Origin: Myxococcus stipitatus DSM 14675
GTDB lineage: Bacteria > Myxococcota > Myxococcia > Myxococcales > Myxococcaceae
NCBI RefSeq assembly: GCF_000331735.1
Contig: NC_020126.1
Coordinates: 7,257,501 to 7,321,500 of the forward strand
Length of the DNA: 64,000 nucleotides
Direction of reading: 5' to 3'
A program made the position numbers and the translations under genes. The notes beneath the pieces are model-generated. The model worked only from the letters and a program-made list of their open reading frames with translations, did no database searches and was not told where the DNA came from. Below, piece by piece: positions 20,791 to 27,955 of this stretch; the first letter of the stretch is position 1, and each line of letters opens with the position of its first letter.

Positions 20791-21927
20791 TCAGTGGGCG
20801 CTCGAGCCCGGGGGCTCGATGCGCTCCACCGCCTTCTGGACGGCCGGATCTCCCGGCACGTCAGGTCCAAGCTGAATGTAGGACAGTAGATGCGTCCGGG
20901 GCGCCGGGGTTGCGCCCTCGGATGCTGTTTTCCGCAGGGCGGTGCGGCGGGCCTCCAGGCTGGCGACCGCCGAGTCGAGCGCCGCCTTCTGCGCCGGGTC
21001 CTTCGACTGGGCGCTGCGCTCCTTCGCCCGGGCGAGGTTGGACTCCACCAGGCGAAGCTGGTCCTTGGCGCGCGCCTGCTCGGAGATGTCCGTGAAGCGG
21101 CCAGGGCCGTTGATGGACAGCTCCAGCTTCGCGACCTGCCGGCCGCGCTCCCCGGGCTGCAGCAGCGTGGTCATCCCCACCCGCTGCGAGATGCCCGAGC
21201 CCCGGCCGTCATGGGACTGGAGGACGAAGTCCACGCCGTCCAGGCCACTGGCCAGTTGGAGCAGCTCGTCGTAGGGCACGGCGGCGAGCAGCACCACCAG
21301 GTCCACGTGCTCCTGCTGGCGCAGCCGCTTCGCCTCGGCGACCACCGCGGGCGCGACGGGCAGCCCCCGCCGCGTCCCGAGCGTCTTGCCCTTGACGGGG
21401 GGGTCCAGGGGCTCCGGCTCGGCCTTCGCGGGCGAGGCGCCCACGACGCCCACCTTGAACCCGCCCACCTGCGTCACCAGCGACGCGGGGAACAGGAGCT
21501 TGCCCTGCGCATCCACCAGGTTCGCGGACAGCAGCTTCAGCTTGGACTTGCGCGTCTGCTTGCGCAGGAAGTCCACGCCCAGCCCCAGGTCCCGGGTGCC
21601 CACCGCCATGGCGACGGTGCCTTGTGCCTCCATCTGCGCGAGCAGCAGCTCCGCGCGTGCACGGGCATCCGGGGCCTCACCGCTGTCCCGGCTCCTGAAG
21701 AGTGCGTTGCCCGCATCCAACACCAAGAGCGGTACGCCCTTGGAGCGCTCTTGCTCTATCGCGACTTTTCGTCTGGCCAGACCGCCAGACGGGTTGTGTC
21801 GTCAACCACAGGGGGCGATTTCGCCCCCATTGTCTCCGGTGAAGAGCAGCACGAGCTGCTTGGGCGCGGCGCCCGCCACCAGGGGCAGGAGCCAGAACGC
21901 CAGCGCGGCGAGCCGCGGGGAACGCAT
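20791..21927 (-). CDS. Putative selenoprotein: exported 5'-nucleotidase/UshA-fold protein with in-frame TGA
   Basis: Read from ATG 21927 the frame gives a signal peptide ([20 protein letters not shown]), then [15 protein letters not shown], a TGA at 21804-21802, and [18 protein letters not shown] in the same frame to 20791; about 378 residues. Exported relatives have a second Cys (PCGC then GGLARR) exactly where the TGA stands, so TGA as selenocysteine in a CGU motif is the best reading. A stem-loop suited to SECIS follows. The phosphatase DxH is replaced by DNG and later His ligands are not evident, so a redox rather than phosphatase role is plausible. The start lies 2 bp after the upstream stop (TGAGCATG). 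Automated calling would begin near 21726 and lose the signal and motif. Confidence 0.7.
21770..21791 (-). promoter_or_regulatory. Candidate bacterial SECIS stem-loop
   Basis: On the minus strand CGTCTGGC (21791-21784), loop GGTCTG (21783-21778) and GCCAGACG (21777-21770) form a perfect 8-bp stem. The apical loop starts 18 nt after the TGA and its first base is G. Bacterial SECIS elements have a loop roughly 16-37 nt after the UGA with a G in the first two loop positions, so both rules are met. Confidence 0.6.
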
Positions 21928-21929
21928 GC

Positions 21930-22778
21930 TCACTTCTTGCCTCCCTTCTTCGGAGGAGTCTTGGACTTGTCCAGCTCCGCGATGCGCTCCTTGGCCGTCT
22001 TGGCGGCGCCGGACTTGGGGTAGCTCTTCACGAGCTCCTCGAGCGCCATGCGCGACTCATCGCGCATCTTGAGCTGGGCGAAGCACTCCGAGGAGCGCAG
22101 GTACGCATCCGGCGCGGACGGCGTCTTCGGGTGGTCCTGCACCACCTTGCCGTACTCGAAGAGGGCCTCGCGGCACTTGGACTCGGAGAGGTACGTCTCG
22201 CCCAGGCCGTAGTGGGCCTCGCCCACCAGCGGGTCCTTGGTCCACTTCTTCATCAGCTCGGTGAAGAGCTGACGGGCGACGAGGACCTCACCGGCCTTGG
22301 CCTTCTCCCGCGCGAGCGCGAGGAAGTCCTTGGGGTTGTCGGGGCGCTTGAGCTCCTCGGCCTTCTTCTTGGCCTCGGCCTCCTTCACGGCGGCGGCGCC
22401 CTGCAGGGCGAGCAGCTTCTGGTCCTGCGCGCCGAGGGCCGTCTCCAGCTCGGTAATTTTGTGGACGTACGTCTCCACCTGACCGCGGAGCTGGGAGAGG
22501 TCCTCCATGGTCTTCTGGAGCTGGATGCCGATGTCCGCGTCCTTGCGGCGCGCGGCGGTGTCCAAGCCGTCGAGGGCCTTGGTGACCTCGGCGACCTTCT
22601 CGTCGATTTTCGGCAAGGTGGCGGCGAGCTGCTCGCGCGCCTCCTTCAGCTCCGCCTGCATCTGCGCGGAGTCGGCGCCGAGACGGTCGACCTTCGCCTC
22701 GAGGGCGCGGCCGCGGTCGGCGGGATAGAAACAACCAGGGAGCGCCACGAGCAGGGCGAGCAGGACGAGCCTTCGCAT
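21930..22778 (-). CDS. CpoB/YbgF-like coiled-coil TPR lipoprotein
   Basis: A 282-aa lipoprotein (MRRLVLLALLVALPGC, Cys16). Residues about 25-130 are a long coiled coil with heptads of Leu, Ala and Lys; residues about 150-265 are three TPR-like repeats (ARQLFTELMKKW, EALFEYGKVVQDHPKT, LEELVKSYPKS). This layout is that of CpoB/YbgF, the Tol-Pal associated factor that coordinates outer-membrane constriction with peptidoglycan synthesis. The selenoprotein candidate follows 2 bp after its stop. Pal-like and chemosensory genes lie upstream on the same strand. Tail is Lys/Gly-rich. Confidence 0.7.
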   Translation of the reverse strand: MRRLVLLALLVALPGCFYPADRGRALEAKVDRLGADSAQMQAELKEAREQLAATLPKIDEKVAEVTKALDGLDTAARRKDADIGIQLQKTMEDLSQLRGQVETYVHKITELETALGAQDQKLLALQGAAAVKEAEAKKKAEELKRPDNPKDFLALAREKAKAGEVLVARQLFTELMKKWTKDPLVGEAHYGLGETYLSESKCREALFEYGKVVQDHPKTPSAPDAYLRSSECFAQLKMRDESRMALEELVKSYPKSGAAKTAKERIAELDKSKTPPKKGGKK

Positions 22779-22864: not shown

Positions 22865-24259
22865 TCAGCGAGTCCCGCCCAGGGGCTCCAGGCGTCCGGC
22901 GGCGTGGGCACACGCCACGCGCAGGCGGCTGGGGTTGAGGAAGAACGGGACGGGGCGCGAGCGGCCTTCCTCCAGGGACACCAGGGCCCGGCGATACTCC
23001 ACGGCCGCGTCGAGGGGGCGGCGGCACTGCTCCAGCAGCAGCCCCAGCAGGTACCGCGCGGCGGCGTGATCCGGGTCCAGTGAGAGACACCGCCGCAAGT
23101 CCCGCTCCGCGGCCGCGTCCGAGGCCCCCGACGAGGCTCCATCCAGCACACAGGCGAAGAGCAGGTCCGCCTCGGTGAAGGCCGCGGCGGAGGCCAGCGT
23201 GTGACCGGGCTCGGCCGGCCCCTCGGGGCTTCGTCCTCCTGGAGTCGACGAGGCGTCCGCTCGCCCCGAGGAAGGGCGCGGGTCCTCGCTCGGGGCCGGT
23301 GCATCGCTCCCCGCGGGTCCGCGTGTTCCCCCGACGGAGGCACCGTCCTGGGGCCGCGCCACCTCCCAGGCCGAGCGGGAGTCCCGAGGCGCCGCGGTCC
23401 CCTCCCCGCTCCGAGGTCCCCCCACCCGGACATGGAAGAAGGCGGAGGTCGTGCGCACCACGCTCAGCGTCGGGGGCACCTGGAGCAGCGGCTCCGACGA
23501 GGACAACACCAACGTCCCGCCCGGCACCAGGCTGTCCGCCAGCGCCGCCACCGTCCGATGGAAGGACTCCACCGTGAAGTAGATGAGGACGTTGCGGCAG
23601 AAGACGACGTCGAAGCCACCCTCCTCCGGCGGCCGGGGGTACGGCGCGTCCATCAGGTTGTGGACCTGGAAGCTCGCGCGCTCTCGCAGCGCCGACACCA
23701 GCGCCAGCCGCGAGCCCTTGGGCATGAAGTAGCGCTCGCGCGGCCCCGCGGGCACCCGGCGCAGTTGCTCCGGGGTGAACGACAGCGAGCACGCACGCCG
23801 CAGCGCCGCCTCGGAGATGTCCGTGCCCAGCACGCTGCTCCCAGGACTGGCGCCGGACTCGGCCAGCAGCATCAGCAGCGTGGCCACCTCCTCCCCCGTG
23901 GAGCAGCCCGCGCTCCACAGGCGCAGGGGCCGCCCTCCCGCCCTCGCGACCAGCGGCGCGAGGACGTGGTCCCGGAAGTCGTTGAGCTGCACCTCGTCGC
24001 GGAAGAGGTCCGTCTTGTTCACCACCACCGCGGAGATGAGGCCCTCCAGGTCCGCCGCGCCCGTCGGGGACTTGAGGAACGCGAGGTATTGGTGCGGCGT
24101 GAGGCCTCGGCACCGCTCCGCGAGGCGATCATCCAGCCGTCGAATCTGGGGGCCGCTCAACGCCATGCCCGTACGCGCCGTGAGGAAGGCGCGCACGGAG
24201 GCCCATTGCCCACCCGAGGCCCGCACCGGCGGCTCAGCGCCCCACTGCGAGCGACTCAC
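22865..24259 (-). CDS. cheR: CheR-type MCP methyltransferase with C-terminal repeat region
   Basis: 464 aa. The N-terminal 270 residues are CheR: an all-helical N-domain, then the AdoMet site [22 protein letters not shown], and [11 protein letters not shown]. It methylates glutamates on chemoreceptors. After a low-complexity linker (about 275-345) the C-terminus has a TPR-like segment ([34 protein letters not shown]), as in other myxobacterial CheR proteins. GTG 24259 lies inside the end of cheB, overlapping by 26 bp. Last gene of the chemosensory operon. Confidence 0.88.
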
Positions 24260-25289
24260 CCCGGGCCAGCCGCGCCAGCGAGGCGGCGACTTCGTCTCCG
24301 TGGATGAGGTGGTCCACCGCCTTGCGCTCCACCGCCGCGCCCGGCATGCCGAACACGACGCAGGACTCCTCGTTCTGCGCCAGCGTCAGGCCTCCCGCCT
24401 GGCGGATGGCCAACAGTCCCTCCGCGCCATCGGCGCCCATGCCCGTGAGCACCAGGCCCACCGCGCGCCGGCCATACGTCCGGGCCGCGCTCTCCAGCAG
24501 CGTCGTCCCCGACGGCATGTGTCCGTCCCGCTCCACGCCGGCCTTGAGCGCCACCCGGCCCCGGAAGGGAATCATGGTGTGCTGCCCCGGCGGGGCGATG
24601 AGCACATGGCCCGGCATCAAGGGCTCGCCGTCCTGCGCCAGCCGCACCTTCAGCCGGCTGGCGTTGGCGAGCCAGCCCGCGAGCGACTCGGCGAAGGCGG
24701 CGTTGATGTGCTGGACGATGACGATGGGCGCGGGGAAGTCCGCGGGCAGCTCCGAGAGCATCCGGTAGAGGACCTGGGGCCCGCCGGTGCTGGCGGCCAC
24801 CACCACCACGCCCATGGACACCGCGGGCAGCACGGACGTCGTCACGCGCGGCGGGGTGATGCCCTTCTGGGGACGGCGCAGGTGGCGGATGACGCGCACC
24901 GAGGAGAGCAGCTTGATCTCCCGCACCAGGTTCCACGCCTCGGGGCCGGCGTCGATGGCGGGCTTTATCTGCAGCGCGAGCGCGCCCAGTTCCAGCGCCC
25001 GATACGTCAGCTCCGGCGCCTGCGAGCGAGGATCCGCCGTCAGCACCAGGATGGGCGTGGGGCACTCGGCCATGATGTGCTCGGTGGCCGTGAGCCCGTC
25101 CATGACGGGCATGTCCACGTCCATGGTGATGACGTGGGGACGCAGCTCCTTGGTCATCTCCACGGCCTGCTTGCCGTCCGCGCAGGAACCGACCACCTCG
25201 ATGTCGGGGTCCTTGCTCAGCGCCTCGCAGATGAGCTGTCGGCAGATGAGTGAGTCATCGACCACCAGCACCGACACTTTCTTGCCCAT
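24234..25289 (-). CDS. cheB: CheB-type receptor methylesterase
   Basis: 351 aa: receiver domain with phospho-acceptor Asp57 ([11 protein letters not shown]), linker, then the CheB methylesterase domain with catalytic Ser in AASTGGP, His in VQHI and Asp in GMGADGAEG. It removes methyl groups added by CheR when phosphorylated by CheA. ATG 25289 ([13 protein letters not shown]) is the receiver-domain start; the frame is open 14 codons further. Located 80 bp after cheA and overlapping cheR. Confidence 0.92.
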
Positions 25290-25369
25290 GCCCTGTCCAT
25301 ACCCCGTGCGCGAGGCGCCGAGTATAGCCAATGCACTGTCCTGTCCTCAGGAGGTTGCGCGAACTGCCT

Positions 25370-27955
25370 TCAGGACAGCAGTCGCCCCACCACATCCACC
25401 AGGTCCTGGCGCACCAGGTCCCCCTTGGTGATGTAGCCGTCCGCCCCCGCCGAGAGCCCACGCCGCCGGTCCTCCTCGCCACCACGCGTGGTGAGGATGA
25501 CGACGGGCAGCCGGGACTGGGTGGGATGCCCCTTGAGGCGCCGGGTCAGCTCCAGCCCGTCCATGCCCGGCATCTCCAGGTCCGTGACGACGAGGTCCAC
25601 CGGAGGGCCCTCCAGCACGTCCAGCGCCTCCGCCCCATCGCCCGCCACCACGGTGTCGTACCCCACCGCCTCCAGGAGGCTGGAGATGAGCTCCCGGGTG
25701 AGCGGGGAGTCGTCCACGACCAGGACCCGGCGGCGCCGGGACTCGGGCTCCACGGGTGTCGAGCGGGGCAGCTTCACCGGGGATGTCCCGTGGGCGCTGG
25801 CCGTGAGGTAGGCGGCGGACAGCACCATCGCGAGCCGGCCGTCCGCCAGGGACGTGGCCCCGGTGAGGTGGGCGAAGCGCGCGAGGACGCCTCGCAGGGG
25901 GAGGATGGCCTGGACGCGCTCCTCCAGCACCCGGTCCACCACGACGGCGGCGGCCCCGCTCTGGCTTCGGACCACGAGGACGAGCTCCCCCTCGCGCACC
26001 TCCCGCTCCGGGGAGAGGCCCAGGAGCGCCCCCAGGGAGGCCAGGGGCAACACCCTCCCCTCCACGAGGAGCGCGGGCCGGCCGGCCACCTCGCACAGGT
26101 GCAGGGGCTCCACCTTGAGGGCGCGGGAGACGTGGGTGGCGCTCAGCGCGAGTGTCTCGTGGCCCACCTGGACGAAGAGCAGGGGGGCCACGGTGAGGGA
26201 GACGGGGACGCGCAGCTCGAAGATGGTGCCCCAGCCCGGGGCGGACTCCACGCCCACATCCCCGCCCAGGCCCTGGACGGAGGCGCGCACCGCGTCCAGC
26301 CCCACGCCCCGGCCTGACAGGTCGGTGACGACGTCCCGGGAGGTGAAGCCGGGCAGGAAGATGAGCTCACGGGTGGCGGCGTCGGAGAGGGCGTTGGCGG
26401 CGCTCTCGTCGAGGATGCCCCGGCGGACGGCCACCCGGCGCAGCTCCGCGGGGTCCAGGCCCAGGCCGTCGTCCTCGACGCGGAGGATGATGCGACTCCC
26501 CTCACGCGCGGCGCGCAGCGTGAGGCAGCCTCGCGGGTGCTTTCCCGAGGTCACCCGGTCGACGCGGGTCTCCAGGCCGTGGTCCAGGGCGTTGCGCACC
26601 AGGTGCATGAGCGGCTCGCGCAAGGCTTCGACGACGGCCCGGTCCGCGCGGGTGTCCTCGCCGTCGACGACGAGTTCCACCTCCTTGCCCAGGGCGCGCG
26701 AGAGGTCGCGGACCATGCGCGGGTAGGGCTCGAAGAGGACGGAGAGCGGGAGCATCCGGAGGCCCTGCACCTCTTCGACGACTTGCCCCAGGTCTCTCAG
26801 CTCCTCGTTGGACAGGAGCTTGGATTCGCGGTGGAGGTCGGCGGCGAGCTCCTTGGCCGTGCCCAGCCGCGCCACCAGCGCCGCCGCGGCGGGCCCCAGG
26901 TCCTCGGCTTCGCGAGCCAGCTGTCCCAGCTCTCGGGCCAGGGCCAGCCGTCGAGCGTGGGCCCGCTCGCGCCGCCGCGCAATCTGGGAGAGGTTCGTCA
27001 CGGCGCTCGTCAACAGGTCCAGGCTCGCCACGTCGATGCGCACGGCGTCCAGGCGCGTCTCGGGTTGCCTCGGGACGGAGTGTGCCTTCGTGGCGGACGT
27101 GCGCGCGCCCGGGGAGGACACGGGGGTCGTCGTGAGCAGGAGCCCCGCGCCGGGCAGGGCTGGGGTTCCTCGCGCGGGCGTCGCCTCCGCTCTCGGCGCG
27201 GAGGGCCAGCCCCGCGTCGCGGCCGTCGTCGACGTGCCTGGAGTCGTCAGTGAAACGCCCGCCTCGCTTCGCGGCGTGACGACAGGAGGGATGGTCCCAG
27301 CACGTGCCGTCCCACCACCACCCTCCACCACGCGTGCTCGACGAGCGTCGTCGTCGATGCCGCCTTTGCGACCGAGTCCCGGGCCTGTCCCTGGCTCGCC
27401 TTGAACCGGAGGCTCGACACTCGTCCCCCCTGCCCCTTCGCCCTGCGGAGCCACGCGCTTCGCCTCGGCCCCCACGGACGCCGCGCGCGCGAGCGCGGCC
27501 GACGACGCACTCAGGTCCCTCGCCTTGGCCTCGCCTCCCTCGGGTGCGGCCGCTCCGGGCGGCAGGCGCTCCGCCTCCGCGCGGATGCACGCCTGGAGCC
27601 ACCCGACCAGCCGCTCCACTTCAGGCGAAGTCGTCCCCGAGGACGGCGGCGCACCCGACAGCAGCAACACCGCATCCGCCGCGCTCAGCAGCGCATCCGT
27701 GGAGTCGGCGGACAGCAGGTAGCGCTTGGGCTCCGCGCAGCGCACGAGCTCTTCCATCTCGTGCACCAGCGAGTTGATGTCGTCGAAGCCCATCATCCGG
27801 GCCTCGCCCTTGAGCCCGTGCAGCTCGCGCAGCGCCCCGCGCCCGGACTCCACGTTCGCCCCCGCCTCCAACTCCATGAGCGCCCGGTTGATGCGCTCCA
27901 GACGCACCGTCACCAGGTCCCGGAACTGCCTGAGGAGGCGCTCGCTCGGGTTCAC
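25370..27955 (-). CDS. cheA: Hybrid CheA histidine kinase with receiver domain
   Basis: 861 aa. In order: HPt domain with phospho-His46 in LHGLKGEARMMGF; a long low-complexity region (about 130-310); dimerisation helices; HATPase with N-box HLVRNALDHGLE and DDGLGLDP; CheW-like domain; and a C-terminal receiver with VVTDLEMPGMDG. A CheA-REC hybrid usually signals a pathway whose output is not a simple flagellar CheY (compare FrzE), and indeed no stand-alone cheY is in the cluster. ATG overlaps the stop of the receptor gene upstream (ATGA). Confidence 0.92.
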   Translation of the reverse strand: MNPSERLLRQFRDLVTVRLERINRALMELEAGANVESGRGALRELHGLKGEARMMGFDDINSLVHEMEELVRCAEPKRYLLSADSTDALLSAADAVLLLSGAPPSSGTTSPEVERLVGWLQACIRAEAERLPPGAAAPEGGEAKARDLSASSAALARAASVGAEAKRVAPQGEGAGGTSVEPPVQGEPGTGPGLGRKGGIDDDARRARVVEGGGGTARAGTIPPVVTPRSEAGVSLTTPGTSTTAATRGWPSAPRAEATPARGTPALPGAGLLLTTTPVSSPGARTSATKAHSVPRQPETRLDAVRIDVASLDLLTSAVTNLSQIARRRERAHARRLALARELGQLAREAEDLGPAAAALVARLGTAKELAADLHRESKLLSNEELRDLGQVVEEVQGLRMLPLSVLFEPYPRMVRDLSRALGKEVELVVDGEDTRADRAVVEALREPLMHLVRNALDHGLETRVDRVTSGKHPRGCLTLRAAREGSRIILRVEDDGLGLDPAELRRVAVRRGILDESAANALSDAATRELIFLPGFTSRDVVTDLSGRGVGLDAVRASVQGLGGDVGVESAPGWGTIFELRVPVSLTVAPLLFVQVGHETLALSATHVSRALKVEPLHLCEVAGRPALLVEGRVLPLASLGALLGLSPEREVREGELVLVVRSQSGAAAVVVDRVLEERVQAILPLRGVLARFAHLTGATSLADGRLAMVLSAAYLTASAHGTSPVKLPRSTPVEPESRRRRVLVVDDSPLTRELISSLLEAVGYDTVVAGDGAEALDVLEGPPVDLVVTDLEMPGMDGLELTRRLKGHPTQSRLPVVILTTRGGEEDRRRGLSAGADGYITKGDLVRQDLVDVVGRLLS

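Follow-up and report, generated by a model that had tools for sequence, protein, structure and literature searches.

A gene on the minus strand of the Myxococcus stipitatus DSM 14675 genome very probably encodes a selenoprotein of an already described family. It lies in the window, that is, the whole stretch of 64,000 nucleotides that was analysed (contig NC_020126.1, positions 7,257,501 to 7,321,500). Judging from sequence comparisons, we put at about 95% the probability that its in-frame UGA stands for selenocysteine (Sec) and that the product is a heme-less member of the UshA-like PCGU family. The UGA at 21804-21802 would be decoded by SelA, SelB, SelD and tRNA-Sec, directed by a hairpin at 21791-21770. 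The features are as follows.

20791-21927, minus strand: predicted selenoprotein gene, 378 aa, with UGA codon 42 as Sec and a terminal TGA at 20793-20791 (translation; one-TGA orthologues in 27 of 27 searched genomes of the genus)
21802-21804, minus strand: in-frame UGA, putative Sec codon 42 (translation; TGC or TGT instead in Cys forms)
21802-21813, minus strand: PCGU motif, residues 39-42 (translation and alignments; motif as in NF041198, UshA_like_PCGU)
21865-21927, minus strand: predicted signal peptide, about residues 1-21, with n-region, hydrophobic stretch and AxA-type site (by eye)
21770-21791, minus strand: bacterial SECIS-like hairpin, 8-bp stem and 6-nt loop GGUCUG at 21783-21778 (windows, codon counts and shuffles)
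21930-22778, minus strand: upstream partner, a CpoB/YbgF-like TPR lipoprotein of 282 aa (TIGR02795, Pfam TPR_6 and adjacency)

With the TGA read through, the gene forms a single frame in which codon 42 is the sole internal TGA, separate from the terminal one. This agrees with the sequence-only reading, which had proposed an exported protein with a frame intact across the TGA. Ala18 and Ala20 of the signal peptide are invariant in 27 aligned sequences. The ATG at 21927 is separated by 2 bp from the stop of the upstream gene (21932-21930), a coupling that had also been described there. The same reading had predicted that ordinary gene calling would start near 21726 and drop the motif; a table-11 ORF caller indeed chose the TTG at 21726 and returned 311 aa, losing both signal peptide and PCGU motif.

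That mechanically called ORF is what would be expected if the TGA were an ordinary stop, whether a nonsense mutation or sequencing error has put it into a gene in decay or translation restarts at the TTG and yields a shorter protein. We consider this very improbable, because the TGA is shared too widely. The protein finds a match at E <= 1e-10 in 107 of 145 genomes of the order, the named relatives of the gene being mostly Myxococcus, Pyxidicoccus, Corallococcus and Archangium. Each of the 27 searched genomes of the genus gives a best match of essentially full length with exactly one TGA, at the same codon. The Sec form occurs in 88 genomes of the order and the Cys form alone in five; the tally omits 14 of the 107 matched genomes, where residue 42 was uncovered or the match was another family member. 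Among the loci read that cover codon 42, the codon is only TGA, TGC or TGT. The Cys orthologues thus read through the site, with Cys exactly where it had been expected from the first inspection of the DNA. After the TGA, residues P46, G48, G49, L50, R52 and R53 are invariant in 27 sequences. Close strains retain the intact UGA frame, and the random stop and decay that would have spoken for a dying gene were not seen among them. On the other side, dN/dS of the stretch from TGA to TTG adds little, since close species pairs have too few changes to prove constraint by this measure alone.

How often have Sec and Cys replaced each other? On a tree in which 10 of 80 rows are Cys forms, eight changes are required. 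This tree was made by a quick method and its long branches were flagged, so we claim repeated exchange without assigning a direction, except that the Cys row L051 is placed beside Sec rows (L and G numbers are our handles for loci and genomes). Identical rows and L090, L116 and L122-L124 are omitted from both the tree and the Cys count. Several genomes (e.g. G043 and G044) carry extra Cys paralogues, L052, L054, L055, L075 and L088, away from the TPR gene. One locus, L095 (BNCN01000006.1), comes from a record titled Comamonas sp. KCTC 72670 and is of Myxococcus type; the title is probably a mislabel.

The genome has the machinery for selenocysteine insertion. In the single contig of 10,350,586 bases, selA (558.8 bits), selB (292.7 bits) and selD (385.8 bits) each exceeded the curated cut-off, and tRNA-Sec scored 66.3 bits against a gathering score of 47; ARAGORN called the same tRNA SeC with anticodon tca. 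The lack of this machinery, named beforehand as an observation that would speak against a selenoprotein, was therefore not found. Formate dehydrogenase was considered as a reason for keeping the machinery and rejected: its two matches both fall under the Fdh-alpha cut-off and both are without TGA.

Across the order the TGA goes together with selA. At a completeness of 90% or more, the Sec form occurs in 82 genomes with selA and in none without it, and Cys alone in one with selA (G129) and in three without (G077, G092 and G144), which gives a Fisher P of 3.9e-5 that is not corrected for relatedness. At all completeness levels, the counts with and without selA are 86 and 2 for Sec and 1 and 4 for Cys only. 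The cleanest case of co-loss is G077, a complete genome that lacks selA, has no selB at E <= 1e-60 and carries TGC at the site. Its best tRNA-Sec match reaches 46.8 against the cut-off of 47; a tRNA-Sec-like match of 44-47 bits is present in most of the 14 genomes compared. Its sister G079, with an 87% identical protein, has selA, selB, a tRNA-Sec of 71.6 bits and TGA. Some genomes fit less neatly. In the Sec-form genome G050 (80% complete) selA was not found; given that selB and tRNA-Sec are present, the gap probably lies in the assembly. In G124 (87% complete, TGA form) neither selA nor selB was found and no tRNA-Sec passed the cut-off; its contig is probably the same as L122. Two Cys-only genomes without selA and selB nonetheless show a tRNA-Sec match above the cut-off of 47, at 47.6 bits in G092 and 51.6 bits in G144. 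In G129, where the site is Cys, selA and selB are both present and no tRNA-Sec match passes the cut-off.

Read-through of UGA by other tRNAs is possible in principle, and relatives accept Cys at this site, so the codon might be recoded as another residue such as Cys or Trp. The presence of tRNA-Sec, SelA, SelB and SelD, the association of the TGA with selA across genomes, the SECIS-like hairpin and the listing of UshA-like proteins as a selenoprotein family all argue against this, and we regard it as even less probable than an ordinary stop.

A bacterial SECIS element is a hairpin that closely follows the UGA and whose apical loop begins with G. The hairpin of M. stipitatus fits this rule, the distance from UGA to loop being 18 nt, and so bears out the stem-loop reported from the sequence alone; a few relatives are off register. 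For the comparison, 89 Sec rows gave 48 distinct windows and 11 Cys rows gave 10, with the short L123 omitted and some genes present twice among the rows via two collections. GGT encodes the second Gly in 47 of the 48 Sec windows, the exception being L073 (GGC). None of the 10 Cys windows has GGT in that column; the count rises to one when account is taken of the loss of a single codon in L072. Stem codons that are rare in reference use are frequent in Sec windows: TCT in 31 of 48 and AGA in 33 of 48, against 2 of 181 Ser and 4 of 253 Arg codons in six window ORFs taken as genes. The mean contiguous stem is 6.29 bp versus 1.77 bp in codon-usage-weighted synonymous shuffles. In the observed register 89% of the cells are paired, at most 57% when the register is slid, and 61% in Cys genes; between L068 and L069 the stem changes on both sides. 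By folding energy, it is mainly the members with 7-8 bp stems that stand out from the shuffles, and most short-stem members are unremarkable, for which reason the codon and loop counts carry the SECIS argument. In the common register the stem of L057 is down to 3 bp, and no pairing is seen in L071, L081 and L084.

The Cys genes are without the GGUCU loop and mostly without the stem. One of them, L051, still has a stem of 6 bp, and its loop has become GGCTTG. Such a residual stem is what would be expected after a recent Sec/Cys change, and is not proof of it. Outside the order, GGTCT was present in all seven Sec genes read and absent from the sole Cys gene read. This tie of hairpin and codon bias to the TGA form is a further point against an ordinary stop.

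The best curated match of the protein is NF041198 (UshA_like_PCGU), with residues 19-370 aligned to model positions 18-374 of 519. The score of 185.4 bits lies below the cut-off of 275, so we call the protein a variant related to the family and not an equivalog member. None of the 145 genomes of the order reaches this cut-off; the NF041198 model alone would therefore not flag the clade. The protein resembles the family in the PCGU/PCGC motif, in a degraded domain of 5′-nucleotidase type and in the Sec/Cys exchange. It differs in having no C-terminal region (after about position 374), which is tetraheme in the relatives L158 and L159. The likeness to UshA-like family 2 (NF049981) is distant, 36.3 bits over residues 25-93, far under the cut-off of 140, and the M. 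stipitatus protein has CxU where family 2 has CxxU.

The family has been in print since 2008: the text of PMC2398784 that treats it describes a COG0737 UshA-like family with CxU, counts 76 UshA-like selenoproteins and 92 homologues with Cys from marine metagenomes, and places the family apart from those with conserved Cys-based redox motifs. It is also among the tabulated families in PMC9312934, and a table of PMC13188914 gives it under NF041198 together with the CxxU family 2 (NF049981). The family's terms were looked for in PMC12013277 and not found. In the open-licence literature we found the family only as entries in tables or passages, and no paper on a myxobacterial member. By sequence, then, the gene is best described as a heme-less variant related to the known UshA-like PCGU family, missed or unflagged, and not as a new selenoprotein family. 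The earlier proposal of a missed selenoprotein is upheld; what is added is that the family (NF041198, CxU) was already known.

Pfam gave no match for the 378-aa protein, neither to a cytochrome nor to the C-terminal 5′-nucleotidase domain, so the fold assignment depends on NCBIfam, phmmer comparison to solved structures and a structural model. The AlphaFold2 model, built from 27 window and named-locus sequences, has a mean pLDDT of 86.4 and is least certain around the PCGU motif (62-73). It superposes on 1ho5_A, a 5′-nucleotidase catalytic domain, with Z 30.2 and rmsd 2.7 A over 275 aligned residues, and on 2wdd with Z 29.0 and rmsd 2.8 over 270. The modelled protein thus has the catalytic-domain fold in common with 5′-nucleotidase/UshA and SoxB, from which it differs by the PCGU loop and by the replacement of most metal ligands.

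These ligands were compared with those of a solved 5′-nucleotidase and of a SoxB-like protein that M. stipitatus also encodes, using the metal-binding residues of 5′-nucleotidases, which we take to be D-x-H, G-D, G-N-H, H and G-H-x-H. In the M. stipitatus protein Gly34 stands in place of the D-x-H His and Asn74 in place of the G-D Asp (several divergent members have Asp there), G-N-H has become G-T-R (Thr111/Arg112), the His of the third motif is Ala (His in L066, L068 and L071-L073), and G-H-x-H is S-H-x-G. Asp32 is invariant and His239 nearly so in 27 sequences, and some divergent members retain more of the ligands. By motif alignment, an intact dinuclear set is absent from the M. stipitatus protein, which supports a dinuclear metal site that has been largely dismantled. 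The description of the product as of 5′-nucleotidase fold is consequently right for the fold and should not be extended to the metal site, most of whose ligands are gone. The SoxB-like protein of the same genome (L136:5897-7492, plus strand) has kept the metal-ligand motifs; it scores 276.2 bits with TIGR04486, whose cut-off is 550.

Several relatives carry a cytochrome in the same polypeptide. L125, L135, L158 and L159 have a C-terminal multiheme region of the Cytochrome_C554 type, which L125 combines with PCGC. L158 (2100-3596, minus strand), from another family of the phylum, is a Sec form with PCGU fused to four CxxCH motifs. L159 has PCGC and four CxxCH and, at 281.4 bits, is over the NF041198 cut-off. 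M. stipitatus itself has a paralogue, L135:5576-7168 (plus strand; G000:C1 at about 8131575-8133167), a lipoprotein with PCGC and multiheme Cytochrome_C554 that scores 227.5 bits, below the cut-off.

The gene upstream is a probable operon partner. Its product scores 80.8 bits with TIGR02795, below the cut-off of 90.1. By tblastn, a TPR lipoprotein gene lies upstream on the same strand, at most 181 nt away, in 88 of 90 Sec-form locus rows, which include the same gene twice; it was not found upstream at the Sec rows L067 and L073. Of the 11 Cys rows, five have it upstream, namely the orthologues L051, L059, L063, L072 and L074, and it is absent upstream of the Cys paralogues L052/L111, L054, L055, L075 and L088. 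The gene was also found in front of L152 (heme-less Sec) and L159 (tetraheme Cys), and was not found at L153-L158. Farther upstream in the window (22865-27955, minus strand), ORFs resemble the chemotaxis genes CheR, CheB and CheA by eye.

What might such a protein do? The product would be exported, and the loop that bears the first metal ligands in 5′-nucleotidases would carry Cys40-Gly-Sec42 instead. The mature part has no Cys besides Cys40 in 65 of 70 distinct Sec forms; exactly two are present in 8 of the 10 Cys forms. This lone Cys-x-Sec pair and the cytochrome fusions of relatives are the reasons for a redox reading, in which Cys40 and Sec42 would cycle between selenol/thiol and selenenylsulfide; we give such a centre about an even chance. 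The electrons could be exchanged with periplasmic c-type cytochromes, the counterparts of the tetraheme domain fused in relatives, which is a more tentative step, and the protein may work with the CpoB/YbgF-like lipoprotein encoded upstream.

The chief rival accepts the selenoprotein and makes Cys40 and Sec42 metal ligands that rebuild the site, so that the enzyme would be a hydrolase acting on phosphate esters or, like SoxB, on sulfur compounds. The fold, the correspondence of the motif loop to the metal-binding loop of 5′-nucleotidases and SoxB, the conserved Asp32 and His239, and the third-motif His kept in L066, L068 and L071-L073 are consistent with it. Points that speak against the redox step are the separation of UshA-like proteins from Cys-based redox families in the relevant text of PMC2398784, the metal ligands still present (Asp32, often His239, and more in some divergent members) and the low certainty of the model at the motif. 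Against the rival, M. stipitatus has other residues in place of the D-x-H His, both Asn and His in G-N-H, and the last His in G-H-x-H, and the relatives with fused tetraheme cytochromes point to electron transfer. We therefore think a rebuilt metal site unlikely, at perhaps one chance in a few, and prefer the redox reading. Sec decoding, the family, the degraded metal site, the operon and the fusions are supported by the comparisons above. That a phosphoesterase scaffold became a selenium redox enzyme, by loss of its metal site and gain of Cys-x-Sec in the loop, coupled to multiheme cytochromes and a CpoB/YbgF-like lipoprotein, is a possibility to which we give somewhat less than an even chance.

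With this gene the myxobacteria, predators rich in metabolites, gain a selenoprotein that is carried by all 27 searched genomes of the genus and lies below the curated family model. The pair G077 (TGC, machinery absent) and G079 (TGA) offers a natural comparison of Cys and Sec forms. More interesting than the identity of the selenoprotein are the testable leads to the function of this uncharacterised family: the loss of the metal site, the Cys-x-Sec pair standing alone, tetraheme fusion and a conserved operon partner. If the redox reading is true, the system would be a periplasmic selenium-dependent electron-transfer module present across Myxococcota and unflagged by the curated family model.
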